In this document: piece by piece, positions 1,009 through 64,000 of the stretch
Numbering within the stretch: the stretch's first letter is position 1
Layout: every line of letters begins with the position of its first letter
Assembly (NCBI RefSeq): GCF_003014555.1
Contig: NZ_PYGE01000002.1
Span: 310,001-374,000 of the forward strand
DNA from: Haloactinopolyspora alba
GTDB taxonomy: Bacteria > Actinomycetota > Actinomycetes > Jiangellales > Jiangellaceae
Reading direction: 5' to 3'
Length of the DNA: 64,000 nucleotides
Made by a program: the position numbers and the translations under genes
The notes under the pieces: model-generated
What the model was told of the DNA's origin: nothing
Seen by the model: the letters and a program-made list of their open reading frames with translations, nothing else
Databases searched by the model: none

Positions 1009-1088
1009 GGGAATGATCACGTCCCGCATAGAATTCCATGCGTCACCACCCTGACAGGCCTGGTGATGCGGGGACGATCCTCGTGATG
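1009..1088 (+). repeat. Family A dispersed repeat, copy 1
   Basis: First of five copies of an about 80-bp intergenic element. It reads GGGAATGATCACGTCCCGCA, then a palindromic core (here GCATaGAATTCCATGC with one base off), then TCACCACC and two spaced copies of a TGGTGATG/CGTGATG motif. It lies between the degV stop and comEA. Other copies are at 27146, 34181, 35081 and 39844. Confidence 0.85.
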
Positions 1089-1181
1089 CACGGTCGCTCG
1101 GCGGTGTCCACAACGAGGGCGCGGCCGGCAGCGTCATCCACATTTCGGCGTCGGACGGTGGAGGCCGGTATCGGCCGTGTC

Positions 1182-6853: not shown

Positions 6854-8872
6854 TCAGCGGGTGAGCACCGGGAGCCACACCCGCATCGCAGTCGGCTCCC
6901 GCTCGGCCCACTGGTGGTACGGGGTGAGGGTCACGTCGAAGCCGTCCGTGCGGGTCTCGTCCGGGCCGGTCCCGTCCGGGCCCATCCCGTCGGCGTGCGC
7001 CTGCTCGTTCGACCGGGACGGGCCGAGCAAGGGCGCTCGCCGATGGTACGGCCAGCGGGAGTCCTCCGGTCCGGGCTGCACCACTGCCCGCACGATCACA
7101 CGTCCGTCACGTGCCACGGGTTCGGTGTCCGTGTCGAGCACGACGTCCTCGAGGTCGACCCCTTCGGGTAGGTCGATCGCTTCCGCGCAGTACACGAGCG
7201 GTCCTCGCTCGACGGCCACGCAGCCTCGCACGGCATCGACGTGCCGGTCCGGCCAGGTGAAGCGCGGGGCCGTGGGCAGCTGCAGGCGCAGCTCTTCGCC
7301 GTCCTCCAGCTCGCGGTCCACGACCGCGAACCCCGGCTGTACCCGTCGCAGCCGCCCGCCCTCGTCGAGCAGCGCGTCCTCGGCCCATTCGGGCACGCGC
7401 AGCCGGAGCGCCACGGGCCCGGAGGGCGCTCGCACGATCCGGAACCGGACGAGGCCGTCGTCGGGGTAGTCGGTGTCGACGTCGACGCTGACGGACCGCC
7501 CGTCGCCGAGCTCGGCGTCGACGCGCATCCCGGTGAACTGCAGAAACGTCAGGTCGCGTTCGCCCGCGGATGCCGCGTAGGCCTGCCAGCTCGCCAGCGT
7601 CCGCGCGACGTTCGTGGGACAGCACGACACGTCGAACCACGCCGCGCGCGCACCGCTTTCCGCGCGCAGGCTCACGCCGTCCTCGCCGGGCCAGTCGTCG
7701 GCGACGCGCTGGTGCAGCGGGTTCGCGTAGAAGAACGCCCGGCCGTCGGAGCGCGGCGAGGTCGCGACGACGTTGAGGAACGTGCGCTCGATCAGGTCGG
7801 CGTACCGGACCTCACCGGTGGCGAGGTAGAGCCGCCACGACACCATGACCGACGCGACGCCCGCGCACGTCTCGCAATAGGCGCGATCCGACGGGAGCTC
7901 CCAGTCCGAACCGAAGCCCTCGTCCTGGTGTCGTGAGCCCATGCCCCCGGTCAGGTACGTCTGCCGCGCCACGGCGTGCGCCCATTGCCGTTGCACCGCG
8001 TCGAGCAGCGCCCCGTCGTCGCGCTCCACGGCGACGTCGACCGCGGCGGCAGCGAGGTACAGCGCACGCACGGCGTGCCCGCGCCAGGTGTCCGCCTTCC
8101 GGATCGGCACGTCGTCCTGGAAGTAGGCCCGGCCCAGCGGGATGTCGCGCAGTGTGCCGTGCCCACGTCGGTCCAGGAACAGCTGTGCCTGTTCCAGGTA
8201 ACGCTCCTCGCCCAGGACACGGCCCAGTTCGGCGAGCCCGACCTCGATCTCGGGATGCCCGCAGACGGCGCGCAGCCCGTTCTCGCCGAACGTCTCGCAG
8301 ACGTGATCCGCGGCCCGCCGGGCCACCTGCACCAGCTCGTCCGTGCCGGTGGTGCGCAGCCGGGCGACGGCCGCCTGCAGCAGGTGCCCGGTGCAGTACA
8401 GCTCGTGGCCCATCTCCGGATCGCTGTAGCGCGGCTGCTGCTGCGGGTGCCCGTAACAGGTGTTGAGGTATCCGTCCGGGTCCTGGGCGGGCGCGATGCG
8501 CGCGGTCAGCCGCCGCACGGCGTCATCGACGACGGGATCCCCGGATCGGGCGAACTCCCAGCACAACGCCTCGATGAGCTTGTACACCTCGGAGTCGGAG
8601 AACGACCAGCCCGGCCGGTCCGGGCCGGTGGTTCCCGCCGCCACCCGGTCGAAGTTGGCCAGCCACCCGAGCCGTTCCATCCAGTGCTCGCAGTGCTCGA
8701 ACGTGGCCGCCGCGTTGGTGGCCTGGAGCGTCGCCCAGAACCCGCCGGTCAGCTCGATCTCGTTCACCCCGAGCGGCCGTCGCCGTCCGAGCGAGGGGAC
8801 GACCGGTCGCCCTCCGGTGGGGTCGGTGCCGGTCGACGTGCGTTGCGCAGTCACGTTGCTCCTTGCGGTCAT
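6854..8872 (-). CDS. GH127 beta-L-arabinofuranosidase-like enzyme
   Basis: Cytoplasmic glycosidase of 672 residues without a signal peptide. GH127 enzymes, such as bifidobacterial HypBA1, remove terminal beta-L-arabinofuranose with a zinc-bound cysteine nucleophile. The matching residues are visible here: E334 and C336 in CETC, and C417-C418 in SCCPTN. E318, 16 residues before E334, sits where the HypBA1 acid/base glutamate is expected. The N-terminal barrel begins EIELTGGFWATLQ and the C-terminal part has beta-domain composition. The ATG overlaps the GH31 stop by 4 bases, making it the last gene of the lacI-led operon. Its likely role is trimming imported oligosaccharides. The substrate could differ, since GH127 is broader than arabinofuranosides. 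Confidence 0.85.
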   Translation of the reverse strand: MTARSNVTAQRTSTGTDPTGGRPVVPSLGRRRPLGVNEIELTGGFWATLQATNAAATFEHCEHWMERLGWLANFDRVAAGTTGPDRPGWSFSDSEVYKLIEALCWEFARSGDPVVDDAVRRLTARIAPAQDPDGYLNTCYGHPQQQPRYSDPEMGHELYCTGHLLQAAVARLRTTGTDELVQVARRAADHVCETFGENGLRAVCGHPEIEVGLAELGRVLGEERYLEQAQLFLDRRGHGTLRDIPLGRAYFQDDVPIRKADTWRGHAVRALYLAAAAVDVAVERDDGALLDAVQRQWAHAVARQTYLTGGMGSRHQDEGFGSDWELPSDRAYCETCAGVASVMVSWRLYLATGEVRYADLIERTFLNVVATSPRSDGRAFFYANPLHQRVADDWPGEDGVSLRAESGARAAWFDVSCCPTNVARTLASWQAYAASAGERDLTFLQFTGMRVDAELGDGRSVSVDVDTDYPDDGLVRFRIVRAPSGPVALRLRVPEWAEDALLDEGGRLRRVQPGFAVVDRELEDGEELRLQLPTAPRFTWPDRHVDAVRGCVAVERGPLVYCAEAIDLPEGVDLEDVVLDTDTEPVARDGRVIVRAVVQPGPEDSRWPYHRRAPLLGPSRSNEQAHADGMGPDGTGPDETRTDGFDVTLTPYHQWAEREPTAMRVWLPVLTR

Positions 8873-23954: not shown

Positions 23955-24011
23955 CCCATGATCATCGGCACTTACCGGCCATATGGCCCGGAAAGTGCCG
24001 ATGATCATGGG
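23955..24011. repeat. Family B palindromic repeat, copy 1
   Basis: Perfect 19-bp arms, CCCATGATCATCGGCACTT at 23955-23973 and its complement at 23993-24011, enclose a second palindrome, GGCCATATGGCC, at 23977-23988. It lies between two divergent genes. Confidence 0.9.
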
Positions 24012-27145: not shown

Positions 27146-27233
27146 GTGAATGATCCACGTTGTTGACGCATGGATGGAATTCCATGCGTCACCACCCCTG
27201 CATGCCTGGTGACGCGTGCAATCGCCTGGTGAT
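27146..27233 (+). repeat. Family A dispersed repeat, copy 2
   Basis: It has the GTGAATGATCCACGTTGTTG lead-in, the palindrome CATGGATGGAATTCCATG region, TCACCACC, and two TGGTGA boxes. It lies between the fadD-like stop and hemW. The lead-in is a few bases longer than in copies 1 and 3. Confidence 0.85.
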
Positions 27234-27254
27234 GGCCACAGCCCTCGCCCGGGG

Positions 27255-34180: not shown

Positions 34181-34261
34181 CGGGAATGACCACGTTCACC
34201 ATGGAATTCCATGCGTCACCACCCTTACAGGCCTGGTGATGCGGGTGAACGCCTAGTGATG
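34181..34261 (+). repeat. Family A dispersed repeat, copy 3
   Basis: Cleanest forward copy: GGGAATGACCACGTTCACC, core CATGGAATTCCATG, GCGTCACCACCCTTACAG, then GGCCTGGTGATG and CCTAGTGATGGG. It fills the gap between dnaJ and rsmE. Confidence 0.88.
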
Positions 34262-34272
34262 GGACGTCACCG

Positions 34273-35010: not shown

Positions 35011-35080
35011 CGAAGCGGACGGCGACGGTGGGCCCGGCACGCGTCCGCGTCCTGGCGACATCCGGTTGAGCCCCGCCGGC

Positions 35081-35163
35081 CATCACCAGGATTGTCGCCG
35101 CGTCACGAGGCGTGTAGGGGTGGTCCCGCATGGAATTCCATGCGGGACGTGATCATTTCCGGG
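35081..35163 (-). repeat. Family A dispersed repeat, copy 4 (inverted)
   Basis: Read on the minus strand it begins CCCGGAAATGATCACGTCCC, then the core GCATGGAATTCCATGC. The downstream CTCGTGACGCG and CCTGGTGATG boxes are degenerate. It lies between the convergent rsmE and GerMN gene ends. Confidence 0.85.
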
Positions 35164-39827: not shown

Positions 39828-39843
39828 CGTCGACGGGAGGGCC

Positions 39844-39924
39844 GTCACCAGGCGAGTGCACGCGTCACGAGGCCCGTACGGGTGGTGACGCATGGAATTC
39901 CATGCGGGACGTGATCATTCCGGA
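39844..39924 (-). repeat. Family A dispersed repeat, copy 5 (inverted)
   Basis: On the minus strand: TCCGGAATGATCACGTCCCG, core GCATGGAATTCCATGC, GTCACCACCC, then GCCTCGTGACGCG and CGCCTGGTGA. It lies between the convergent DUF4091 and LCP gene ends. Confidence 0.88.
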
Positions 39925-41419: not shown

Positions 41420-42496
41420 TCAGGTGTTCCATCCGGCGGGAAGCACGAAGGAAACGGGCCACGGGGAGGGCCAGTCGTGCGGCTGCGGTTCGATCGGTCC
41501 GGCGTCCGGGTGGTGTTTCCACCAGCGCACGGGCTGTTGGCGAGCCGGGTTGTCCCGCAGCAGGGCAGCGAACCGTCGGGCGAGTTCGGGCCGGTCGCGG
41601 CTGGCGAGGTCCCAGTCGTAGCGGCCGATGTCGAGTCCGAGCCTGCGTAGGCGCCATTCCCGTTCGGTCTGGCGGGCGACGATCCGGGACGCGTCCGACC
41701 GGTTGTCGTACTTGATCGCGCCGTCGGCCTCGCTGGCCACCCAGTGGTAGGGCCACAGGCCGTCGACACGAAACTCCGGCCGGTCGGCGCCGACCCAGGC
41801 GTTGGAGACCGGCATAGGCAGGTCGAATTGGATGCACGTGAACCGGCCGAGGGTCTCGAGCGGCGACTCCGCCAGTGCGTCGGCATGCTCGGCGACCCAT
41901 CGCGCCCGGTGCACACCGGGCCAGCCGGCCATGTGCCGCACGGCCTCGTGCAGGTCTGCCCCCGACTGCGCGGCGGCGTCGGCGACCACCAGCGCGTCCG
42001 GGATCGGGCTCGACCGTGCCACGTCGGCTACGGCCCACTGCCTGCTCATCACGCTCACGTCGCCGAGGCGCCGTGCCTGGCCGGCGGGAATGCAGACGGC
42101 GCGGATGATCCCGAACTGTGTGGCCTGGGTGGACGCTCGGAAGGCGGCTGATCTCAACGCTTGGGGCAGGCGGGGCGGCGACCCGACGGTCGGGAGATCG
42201 AAGGTGACGACGGCGGACCATCCGGTGAGGAACACCGGTTGATCGCGGGACAGGACGAATGCCGCTGCGTGGAGACGATGGCGCTCCCACGGGGATGCGG
42301 CGCCGAGGTTGACGGTCGAGACGTAGCACCGGGGCGCGACTCGGGTCAGCAAGCCCGCGTCCCGCAGCCGTCGCAACCGACCTTCGTGTATGCCGGCGGC
42401 GAGGGCCACCGAGGTGGTCAGCACGCCACGGTGGCGGGCGAGCAGTTCGGTGACGTCCGAGGGGAGGGTTCGCGGCCGGGCGGGCATGGGTCGCAC
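41420..42496 (-). CDS. AbiEi-like/nuclease-fold protein
   Basis: 358-residue protein without signal or membrane segments. Residues about 8-70 form a winged helix of the AbiEi antitoxin type (LLARHRGVLTTSVALAAGIH, ...GLLTRVAPRCYVS). Residues about 215-320 resemble a PD-(D/E)XK/Vsr-like DUF559 domain (ESPLETLGRF, EFRVDGLWPYHW, EADGAIKYDN, REWRLRRLGLDIGRYDWD), keeping acidic and Lys residues in plausible order. This fusion is common in actinomycetes as a single gene. No AbiEii toxin partner is visible, so the antitoxin label is only structural. It is convergent with HIT. The function is unknown. Confidence 0.65.
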   Translation of the reverse strand: MRPMPARPRTLPSDVTELLARHRGVLTTSVALAAGIHEGRLRRLRDAGLLTRVAPRCYVSTVNLGAASPWERHRLHAAAFVLSRDQPVFLTGWSAVVTFDLPTVGSPPRLPQALRSAAFRASTQATQFGIIRAVCIPAGQARRLGDVSVMSRQWAVADVARSSPIPDALVVADAAAQSGADLHEAVRHMAGWPGVHRARWVAEHADALAESPLETLGRFTCIQFDLPMPVSNAWVGADRPEFRVDGLWPYHWVASEADGAIKYDNRSDASRIVARQTEREWRLRRLGLDIGRYDWDLASRDRPELARRFAALLRDNPARQQPVRWWKHHPDAGPIEPQPHDWPSPWPVSFVLPAGWNT

Positions 42497-50210: not shown

Positions 50211-52072
<1,862 letters not shown>

Positions 52073-56393: not shown

Positions 56394-56416
56394 ACTGTCT
56401 CCGTCACCGTCTCCCA

Positions 56417-56465
56417 TGATCATCGGCACTTTCTTGGCCATACGGCGGGAAAGTGCCGATGATCA
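56417..56465. repeat. Family B palindromic repeat, copy 2
   Basis: Arms TGATCATCGGCACTTTC and GAAAGTGCCGATGATCA (17 bp, perfect) flank a 15-base centre containing GGCCATACGGC, between dacB and recO. Confidence 0.88.
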
Positions 56466-56521
56466 GCGGGAGGACGGTTCGAGGACGGCGAGCCTGGTGT
56501 GCCGGCGTGCCGGCTTCGGGC

Positions 56522-63526: not shown

Positions 63527-63949
63527 GTGTCGGTCAGCGGACAGCCGGTCAAGGAGCAGCGCCGCACGCGTCAGCGGGCGGCCGTCGACGAGGTGCTCGA
63601 CGAGACCGCCGACTTCATCAGCGCCCAGGAGCTGCACGCCATCCTGCGCTCACGCGGCGCCGGAGTCGGCCTGGCTACCGTGTACCGCACCCTGCAGACC
63701 ATGGCCGACGACGGCCGTGTCGACGTGCTGCGTGCCGACGGCGGCGAGGCGGTCTACCGGCGGTGCCTGCGCGAGGAGCACCACCACCATCTGGTCTGCC
63801 GCTCGTGCGGCGCTGCCGTCGAGATCGCCGGTCCCACCGTGGAACGGTGGACGAAGTCGATGGCGGACAAGTACGGCTACGTCGACATCTCGCACACGCT
63901 GGAGATCTTCGGCACCTGCCCGCGCTGCGCGGCGCAGAGTTCCCCATGA
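63527..63949 (+). CDS. zur: Zinc uptake regulator Zur (Fur family)
   Basis: Repressor of zinc uptake, 140 residues. A winged helix contains FISAQELHAILRSRGAGVGL and ATVYRTLQTMADDGRVDVLR. Metal ligands include EEHHHHLVCRSCG and CPRC. The frame extends back to 63368 with no signal; GTG 63527 is used because GGGAGG lies 12 bases upstream and the protein then has the typical length. It is divergent from znuA and carries a family B repeat that overlaps its stop codon (63947-63949). Confidence 0.92.
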   Translation: MSVSGQPVKEQRRTRQRAAVDEVLDETADFISAQELHAILRSRGAGVGLATVYRTLQTMADDGRVDVLRADGGEAVYRRCLREEHHHHLVCRSCGAAVEIAGPTVERWTKSMADKYGYVDISHTLEIFGTCPRCAAQSSP

Positions 63950-64000
63950 TCATCGGCACTTTCCCGTCACATGGGCGGGAAAGTGCCGATGATCATGGGG
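63942..64000. repeat. Family B palindromic repeat, copy 4
   Basis: Perfect 24-bp arms at 63942-63965 and 63977-64000, starting CCCCATGATCATCGGCACTT, with an 11-base centre. The element supplies the zur stop codon and reaches the window edge. Confidence 0.9.

Follow-up and report, generated by a model that had tools for sequence, protein, structure and literature searches.

Haloactinopolyspora alba (Jiangellaceae) carries a 78-bp intergenic hairpin repeat, and both this repeat and its association with a gene that inverted repeat copies bracket, encoding a protein with an AbiEi-like and a Vsr-like half, are well supported. Together they probably form a REPtron-like system with a non-HUH enzyme, in which the repeat would be the dispersed, non-autonomous part and the AbiEi/Vsr-like gene the other part. 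The relation between gene and repeats is one of association and not of causation, and we infer the transposition.

The repeat in the window and in the genome

The best copy of the repeat (covariance model E 7.6e-26, model span 34182-34262) occupies positions 34184..34261, forward strand, of the window, the whole 64,000-nt stretch of DNA analysed. It lies between dnaJ (stop codon 34165-34167) and rsmE (start 34273); the names dnaJ, rsmE and sdhB are our reading of the encoded proteins, and the RsmE of the window is 71-72% identical to that of two Jiangella species and 62% to that of Phytoactinopolyspora halophila. All parts of this copy read on the forward strand: the 5' tag RAATGAYCACGT (34184..34195), the palindrome CATGGAATTCCATG (34200..34213), which in H. 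alba replaces the left outer arm, the 5' arm (GCGTCACCA, 34213..34221) and the 3' arm (TGGTGATGC, 34234..34242) of the conserved hairpin, the inner CCTNGTGAYG box (34232..34241), which in five other copies of the genome is the site of an IS30-like insertion, and the terminal CCTNGTGAYG box (34252..34261), which is the 3' end of the repeat. Two further forward copies, at 1009..1089 and 27146..27235, lie between co-directional genes, with a stop codon 15 and 10 bp before them, respectively; the second belongs to a 90-bp subfamily. The copies at 35080..35160 and 39842..39922, both on the reverse strand, lie between convergent genes, with the stop of the leftward gene 3 and 6 bp away.

A covariance model run over the window recovered all five copies of the preliminary description with their parts and strands. 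It yielded no sixth copy at E ≤ 0.01 (best new place 51201-51268, E 0.14); two additional rows under this threshold were the same copies on the opposite strand. The intergenic position of all five, two between convergent and three between co-directional genes, was borne out by a codon-usage gene caller. The unit, described as about 80 bp long, measures 78 bp in most copies and 90 bp in the subfamily that includes the copy at 27146. Two spaced boxes are indeed present, 20 bp apart, with the letters CCTNGTGAYG and not 'TGGTGATG'. As for the two hairpins proposed, the one formed by TCACCA and TGGTGA is conserved across genera, and the 16-bp palindrome is special to H. alba.

In the whole genome (G000 among our genome handles; a 5.54-Mb draft in 49 contigs), a covariance model built from 32 copies (R1) gave at least 150 matches at E ≤ 0.01, corresponding to at least 139 sites after overlaps were merged. 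The sequence CATGGAATTCCATG with up to two mismatches occurs 136 times per strand, and its reversed control 0 times, so the repeat is not due to chance. Full-length copies number 115, of which 111 span exactly 81 model positions; no two of these 111 are alike, and their mean pairwise identity is 0.83. The edges of the repeat are sharp (78 bp, RAATGAYCACGT...CCTNGTGAYG): the information profile of the 111 copies goes up at RAATGA and is at background right after GTGAYG. Each repeat has two CCTNGTGAYG boxes, in which the N is unconstrained. Within the tag, GAYCACGT, positions G7, A8, C10, A11, G13 and T14 (81-nt frame) do not vary among 48 copies taken from several families. No called ORF shares 40 bp or more with any of the 139 sites. 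No Rfam family matched at the gathering score in 139192 bases from 9 sources. A coding reading was rejected: short ORFs (ATGA...TGATG) are present, but by our reading the variable positions show no third-codon preference.

The preliminary description had suggested a genome-wide element of the REP/BIME type or a non-autonomous mobile repeat. The number of sites agrees with this, as do the paired bases kept by double changes and the R1 counts from 0 to at least 150 in relatives, and neither of the outcomes named as contrary to it, few further copies or unconserved pairs, was encountered. The mobility of the repeat itself is what we infer from these data.

Several variants were observed. MITEs of DDE transposons are marked by terminal inverted repeats and a target-site duplication; in the present repeat, long forms have inverted AATGATCACG/CGTGATCATT at their ends, which short forms lack. 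In the 90-bp subfamily a GTTGTTGAAG-type stretch replaces the usual spacer; its members are the window copy 27146-27235 and copies at C1:269998, C15:98335, C10:131814, C18:63040 and C14:86901 of the H. alba contigs. Palindromes of 45 bp, at C2:423009-423053, C10:140758-140802 and C20:40602-40646 with related forms at the contig ends of C3 and C38, correspond to two 5' quarters of the repeat joined head to head, as read from the letters of the C2 and C3 copies.

Compensatory changes in the hairpin

Conservation of the hairpin was evaluated in an alignment of 48 copies of 81 nt, 27 from Jiangellaceae and 21 from other families. Partial matches and copies of other lengths were left out, and the lack of gaps is therefore partly by choice. 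In this alignment 77.5% of the cells pair and both sides have changed in 24 of 27 pairs; R1, the model used to find copies, already contained 7 of the pairs. The covariation score was 0.414, compared with 0.169 (sd 0.011) for shuffled alignments and 0.086-0.131 for slid partners. These results show that the hairpin is kept by compensatory changes. The apparent G-U tolerance at pairs 31/62 and 34/59 sits at CpG-type transitions and was not used as evidence. The H. alba copies retain the hairpin in its inner part only, with the palindrome GCATGGAATTCCATGC in place of the outer left arm.

The folding energy of the repeats was -28.5 kcal/mol, versus -20.0 kcal/mol for shuffled sequences. The sense strand was the more stable in 36 of 111 copies, that is, the two strands fold alike, which gives no sign of selection at the RNA level. 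RNAalifold applied to 32 copies returned a weak structure (-3.66 kcal/mol); with this and the similar sense and antisense folds, an RNA-only reading was set aside.

The repeat is polar with respect to stop codons

Genes were called with our own simple codon-usage caller. Of the 139 sites, 59 lie between convergent genes, 58 between co-directional genes (in 40 of these the repeat points the same way) and 10 between divergent genes, and 12 are at contig edges. Ten partial or dimeric copies were excluded, and stop-codon distances were taken from 127 copies. A gene stop faces the 5' end of the repeat in 102 of these, within -8 to +20 bp in 89; in 27 of the 127 the distance is exactly -8, where the repeat's own AATGA supplies the TGA stop. 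Both neighbours were called for 121 copies (56 convergent, 56 co-directional and 9 divergent), and 83 of these have their 5' end no more than 20 bp from the facing stop, against 6.7% under random placement, a small control drawn from 44 gaps of the window. Proximity to a facing stop was seen at the 5' end only in 67 copies, at the 3' end only in 6, at both in 16 and at neither in 32 (p 4e-14). A similar trend was observed elsewhere: among 69 distinct copies of other Jiangellaceae, a stop lies within -10 to +20 bp of the 5' end in 32 and of the 3' end in 8, and among 24 copies outside this family, 14 are near a stop at the 5' end and 6 at the 3' end. Thus, the repeat has a polarity behind stop codons. 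Neither this polarity nor the nuclease-like partner was foreseen in the preliminary description.

Strong polarity of this kind, with the scarcity of divergent positions among the 121 copies, would also suit elements that the host keeps at gene 3' ends as terminators or mRNA stabilisers, the AbiEi/Vsr-like protein being a regulator that binds them. Four convergent gene pairs in G003, G007 and G009 have a copy behind each of their two genes, which fits such a role, as does folding more stable than that of shuffled sequences; furthermore, binding to inverted repeats has been reported for AbiEi antitoxins, at the promoters of their own genes (PMC7319586). Nonetheless, we consider this explanation unlikely. 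Equally good folding of both strands speaks against it, as do the distribution and turnover described below, and it leaves the amplification and the species-specific sequence of the repeats unexplained.

Distribution and turnover among relatives

With R1, repeats were detected in 18 of 22 Jiangellaceae genomes, several of them with at least 150 matches; there were none in G008, G017, G018 and G021 and 5 in G015. Counts from 0 to at least 150 occur within one genus, contrary to what host-kept 3'-end elements would lead one to expect. A second covariance model (R2), built from the 48 aligned copies, was run on 393 Actinomycetes genomes at E ≤ 1e-5 and gave 31 positives, comprising 18 of the 22 Jiangellaceae and 13 of 371 other Actinomycetes (seven in family f9, two in f40 and one each in f6, f19, f26 and f28). 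Low counts were found in G029, G086 and G175 (1 match each) and in G026 and G331 (2 each), and G008, G017, G018 and G021 remained at 0. In G002 R2 found at least 11 matches, so the 3 found with R1 are an undercount. By eye, tag and hairpin are present, and the 3' end is similar, in the matches from 7 of 8 outside genomes, and the gene-bracketing copies of G029, G123 and G168 are tagged as well. R1 matches in G033 and G055 were dropped, given their absence with R2 (G033 had 0 and G055 was not positive); the two G033 stretches lack the tag.

Two gene borders were compared. Between dnaJ and rsmE, among 22 genomes, 10 of the 12 from the Jiangella genus g3 have a short, repeat-free overlap of the AACTGACCGCACC type, and differing versions of the repeat are found in G000, G013 and G020. 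In the 150 nt behind the sdhB stop, examined in 21 genomes, 4 have a repeat and 17 have none, which again argues against elements kept by the host. The filled sites are at the stop codon in G000 and G020, 9 nt behind it in G001 and nearly 60 nt behind it in G004. Several of the empty relatives already have GAA-TGA; the empty G013 has GAT-TGATCA, and the same GAT codon is retained in the filled G020. From these letters, insertion seems to use sites resembling the AATGATCA tag. Target duplications and base-exact junctions were not definable at dnaJ|rsmE, sdhB or the other junctions.

Insertions into the repeat and other hairpin families

In five copies of the H. alba genome (C10 start, C27 start, C12 end, C36 end and C29 end; L141, L142 and L146-L148) the inner CCTNGTGAYG box is interrupted by an IS, always at one and the same position. 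Its end, TLDLKTPAQALDELL, reads like the C-terminus of an IS30-family transposase. The repeats serve as IS targets, as REPs do. The copy at the C10 end (L149) contains a related IS end. Another kind of insertion lies in the palindrome, directly before GGAATTCC, at the C11 and C6 starts (L144 and L145), and a similar but different insertion end occurs at C18:102577 (L156).

Other hairpins were also noticed. A family of about 53 bp, CATGATCATCGGCACTT...AAGTGCCGATGATCATG, is found in the window at approximately 23957-24009, 56415-56467 (imperfect) and 63945-63997. Hairpins ended by TGATCA but with other stems occur in G002, G007, G008, G010, G013 and G018, including genomes without the present repeat. 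In G003, G009 and G019 some repeats combine the core hairpin with a GATGATCATC-type end in place of the AATGATCACG tag (L251 12560-12650, L255 10185-10275 and L262 14170-14270), which suggests a possible exchange of modules between these two families of hairpins.

A gene bracketed by two inverted copies

The preliminary description had proposed looking for an associated RAYT-type or other transposase. No RAYT was found, and the search for another enzyme pointed to a gene of a different kind that repeats bracket. When the 671 proteins from 200 repeat loci were compared all against all, one protein stood beside repeats at six distinct places in two taxonomic families, and tblastn added a seventh. 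Two larger clusters of neighbours (12 and 10 loci), of the ABC-transporter and ROK types by eye, were put aside as apparently common families. A profile of the six members was run on 51 genomes: the 22 of the family, 13 repeat-positive outsiders and 16 repeat-negative outsiders that we chose. It separates a subfamily (E ≤ 7e-82) from paralogs (E ≥ 7.9e-58). The subfamily gene is present in 25 of 31 repeat-positive and in 0 of 20 repeat-negative genomes (Fisher p 3.7e-9; like the other tests here, this one makes no correction for shared descent). There is one such gene in 22 of the 25 genomes and two in G070, G113 and G133; that of H. alba lies outside the window, on contig 30 at 7375-8337. In G015, a genome with only 4-5 repeats, the gene is about 50 codons short at its end (270 aa). 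Among Jiangellaceae, R1 numbers differ between the 15 genomes with the gene and the 7 without it (p 0.001, the top counts being lower bounds). The repeat carriers without the gene are G011, G012 and G004 (an 81%-complete genome), with 64, 16 and 18 R1 matches, and G086, G175 and G331, with only 1-2 matches each. A paralog of the partner protein is encoded in the window at 41540-42457, reverse strand (profile E 2.1e-29), without a bracketing repeat.

Of the 25 subfamily genes examined with R2 (30 loci), one per genome and with the second genes of G070, G113 and G133 left aside, 23 are bracketed by an inverted pair of repeats whose tags point outward. The resulting units of about 1.25 kb, exemplified by G007, L410 1311-2558, have a single ORF of about 320 aa. 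The exceptions are G000, with the left copy only, and G026, with none at E ≤ 0.1; some bracketing copies are weak (right copy of G014, 19.9 bits; left and right copies of G029, 15.6 and 24.3 bits). Bracketing was absent from all 5 paralog genes (p 1.5e-4 versus the subfamily). According to neighbouring proteins shared in BLASTP, without requiring full synteny, the genes fall into groups of 9, 4, 4 and 4 genomes, with four alone. This indicates that the gene is inherited at fixed places, yet at more than one place over time, and the identical neighbours within groups suggest that the bracketing copies may be old. For all the dispersed copies of G000 (109/109), G005 (9/9), G013 (8/8) and G014 (3/3), the nearest bracketing copy was that of their own genome; among near Jiangella species the result was mixed (G007 3/5, G020 3/7, G003 1/2 and G009 0/2).

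Could another enzyme, such as an IS transposase acting in trans, spread the repeats, with the AbiEi/Vsr-like gene as mere cargo or serving in defence? Such a scheme would agree with the two kinds of IS seen in H. alba repeats and with the three genomes that have 16-64 repeats without the gene. However, the visible IS ends are unlike the repeat, bracketing holds in 23 of 25 cases within at least four different sets of neighbours, and the gene is missing from all 20 repeat-negative genomes, so that we regard this possibility as quite improbable. That these are classical REP elements moved by a RAYT (a Y1 HUH transposase) is hardly credible in spite of the copy number, extragenic place, hairpin and bracketed single-copy gene, since Y1_Tnp (PF01797) was detected, at the sensitivity of the Pfam model, which a very divergent Y1 protein might escape, in 0 of the 22 family genomes and in 5 of 14 controls, and the repeat has no GTAG tag.

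The partner protein combines AbiEi-like and nuclease-like parts

The 24 members compared are 38-71% identical to the H. alba protein. E207, D239, E250-x-D252-G-x2-K256-Y, E274, R277, E278 and R290, among others, are invariant in all of them; the candidate catalytic residues were read off this alignment. At E ≤ 0.5, Pfam AbiEi_4 matched 24 of 24 members, DUF559 three (best E 0.033) and MTES_1575 two (best E 0.017); AbiEi_4 was above its curated cut-off in 3 of 5 members. PADLOC AbiEi models match the N-terminal part. NCBIfam gave no match for three members, a sequence search of the PDB gave nothing credible, and no relative of the protein was found in the plasmids and viral contigs searched.

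An AlphaFold2 model of the H. alba member (pLDDT 92.2, pTM 0.87) was compared with known structures. Foldseek retrieved the AbiEi antitoxin 6y8q (E 5.8e-5) and Rv2827c 1zel (2.2e-4), and VIA-align matched residues 1-199 to AbiEi (Z 10.4). For residues 204-315, VIA-align gave I-Bth0305I (Z 11.8; 97 residues, rmsd 2.5), the putative endonuclease 3hrl (Z 10.8), Vsr (Z 10.0) and TnsA (Z 6.9), where a Z below 8 may mean a common arrangement only. The C-terminal half is thus predicted to have the Vsr/I-Bth0305I nuclease fold; as a fold held in common does not in itself establish function, the protein is a putative nuclease.

A proposed mechanism

Under the interpretation of a REPtron-like system with a non-HUH enzyme, it is likely that the partner protein spreads the repeats, probably in trans. 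Its AbiEi-like half would read the CCTNGTGAYG boxes or the hairpin, and its nuclease-like half would cut at or beside the tagged hairpin or the target; new copies would then arise by transposition or by break-repair (homing-like) copying. The targets would be AATGATCA-like sites, possibly stop codons (GAA-TGA). By landing tag-first behind a gene, or surviving there, the element would give it a stop codon and a 3'-UTR hairpin, so that copies may be tolerated or even useful at transcript ends. We see an even chance for the more specific proposal that a REP-like system evolved in Actinomycetes independently of HUH transposases, in which a protein that is Vsr-fold homing-endonuclease-like and AbiEi-like copies hairpins to gene ends by cleavage and repair and not in the manner of a classical transposase. 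If this is true, many genes receive stop codons and 3'-UTR hairpins from the action of a single gene that stays at fixed places.

Among the short repeats that persist as populations in bacterial genomes, REPs with their RAYTs are known best. If another system had this layout but an unrelated enzyme, it would represent convergent evolution, and would allow one to ask which feature is essential: the hairpin, the stop-codon tag or the bracketed single-copy enzyme. The present system also provides a subfamily of AbiEi/DUF559-like proteins with a role that can be tested, and it reveals a class of repeats from which genes of Actinomycetes obtain stop codons.

Comparison with known systems

In mycobacteria, MIRU is an intergenic unit of about 77 bp whose ends overlap stop and start codons; we know of no partner enzyme for it. 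In the open-licence literature we found no paper on repetitive palindromic sequences of Jiangella and none on RAYT and REP sequences in Actinobacteria. Among the open-licence matches listed, titles and the beginnings of abstracts mention no link between AbiEi/Vsr-like proteins and REP repeats.

GTAG REPs and their RAYT/TnpA-REP enzymes (REPtrons) are reported mostly from Proteobacteria (PMC2817692, PMC8266576, PMC3733652). TnpA-REP is described as mostly single copy and without evidence of its own mobility, and how REP repeats spread is given as still open (PMC8266576). In the genomes treated in PMC3733652, REPs are found mainly between convergent or co-directional genes, most of those between convergent genes are less than 20 bp from ORF 3' ends, and GTAG termini often give the stop codon TAG. 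The repeat described here resembles GTAG REPs in being an extragenic hairpin that carries an unpaired tag at one of its ends and has more than 100 copies, in its place behind ORFs and between convergent genes, in a tag that gives a stop codon (TAG in REPs, TGA here), in complementary stem changes and in being targeted by IS elements. The mostly single-copy enzyme gene bracketed by two inverted repeats recalls REPtrons. In contrast, the tag is GAYCACGT and not GTAG, the length is 78 bp and not 20-40, and the protein, found in Actinomycetes, has an AbiEi-like part and a Vsr-like fold with no Y1/HUH domain detected. The present system thus resembles a REPtron in its layout and probably in its working, and is not a member of the REPtron family.

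CGTC REPs, reported without a dedicated transposase, are likewise hairpins downstream of ORFs without a RAYT (PMC3733652); by their description they stand apart, being shorter (20-40 bp), with a CGTC tag and in other phyla (PMC3733652). Vsr-fold nucleases (the homing endonuclease I-Bth0305I, Vsr and TnsA of Tn7) are similar to the predicted C-terminal half, which differs from them in its fusion with an AbiEi-like part and in the hairpin repeats on both sides of its gene. Finally, the antitoxin AbiEi of the type IV toxin-antitoxin system AbiE resembles the N-terminal part, but here there is one gene per unit, with a nuclease-like C-terminus and no separate AbiEii toxin gene.
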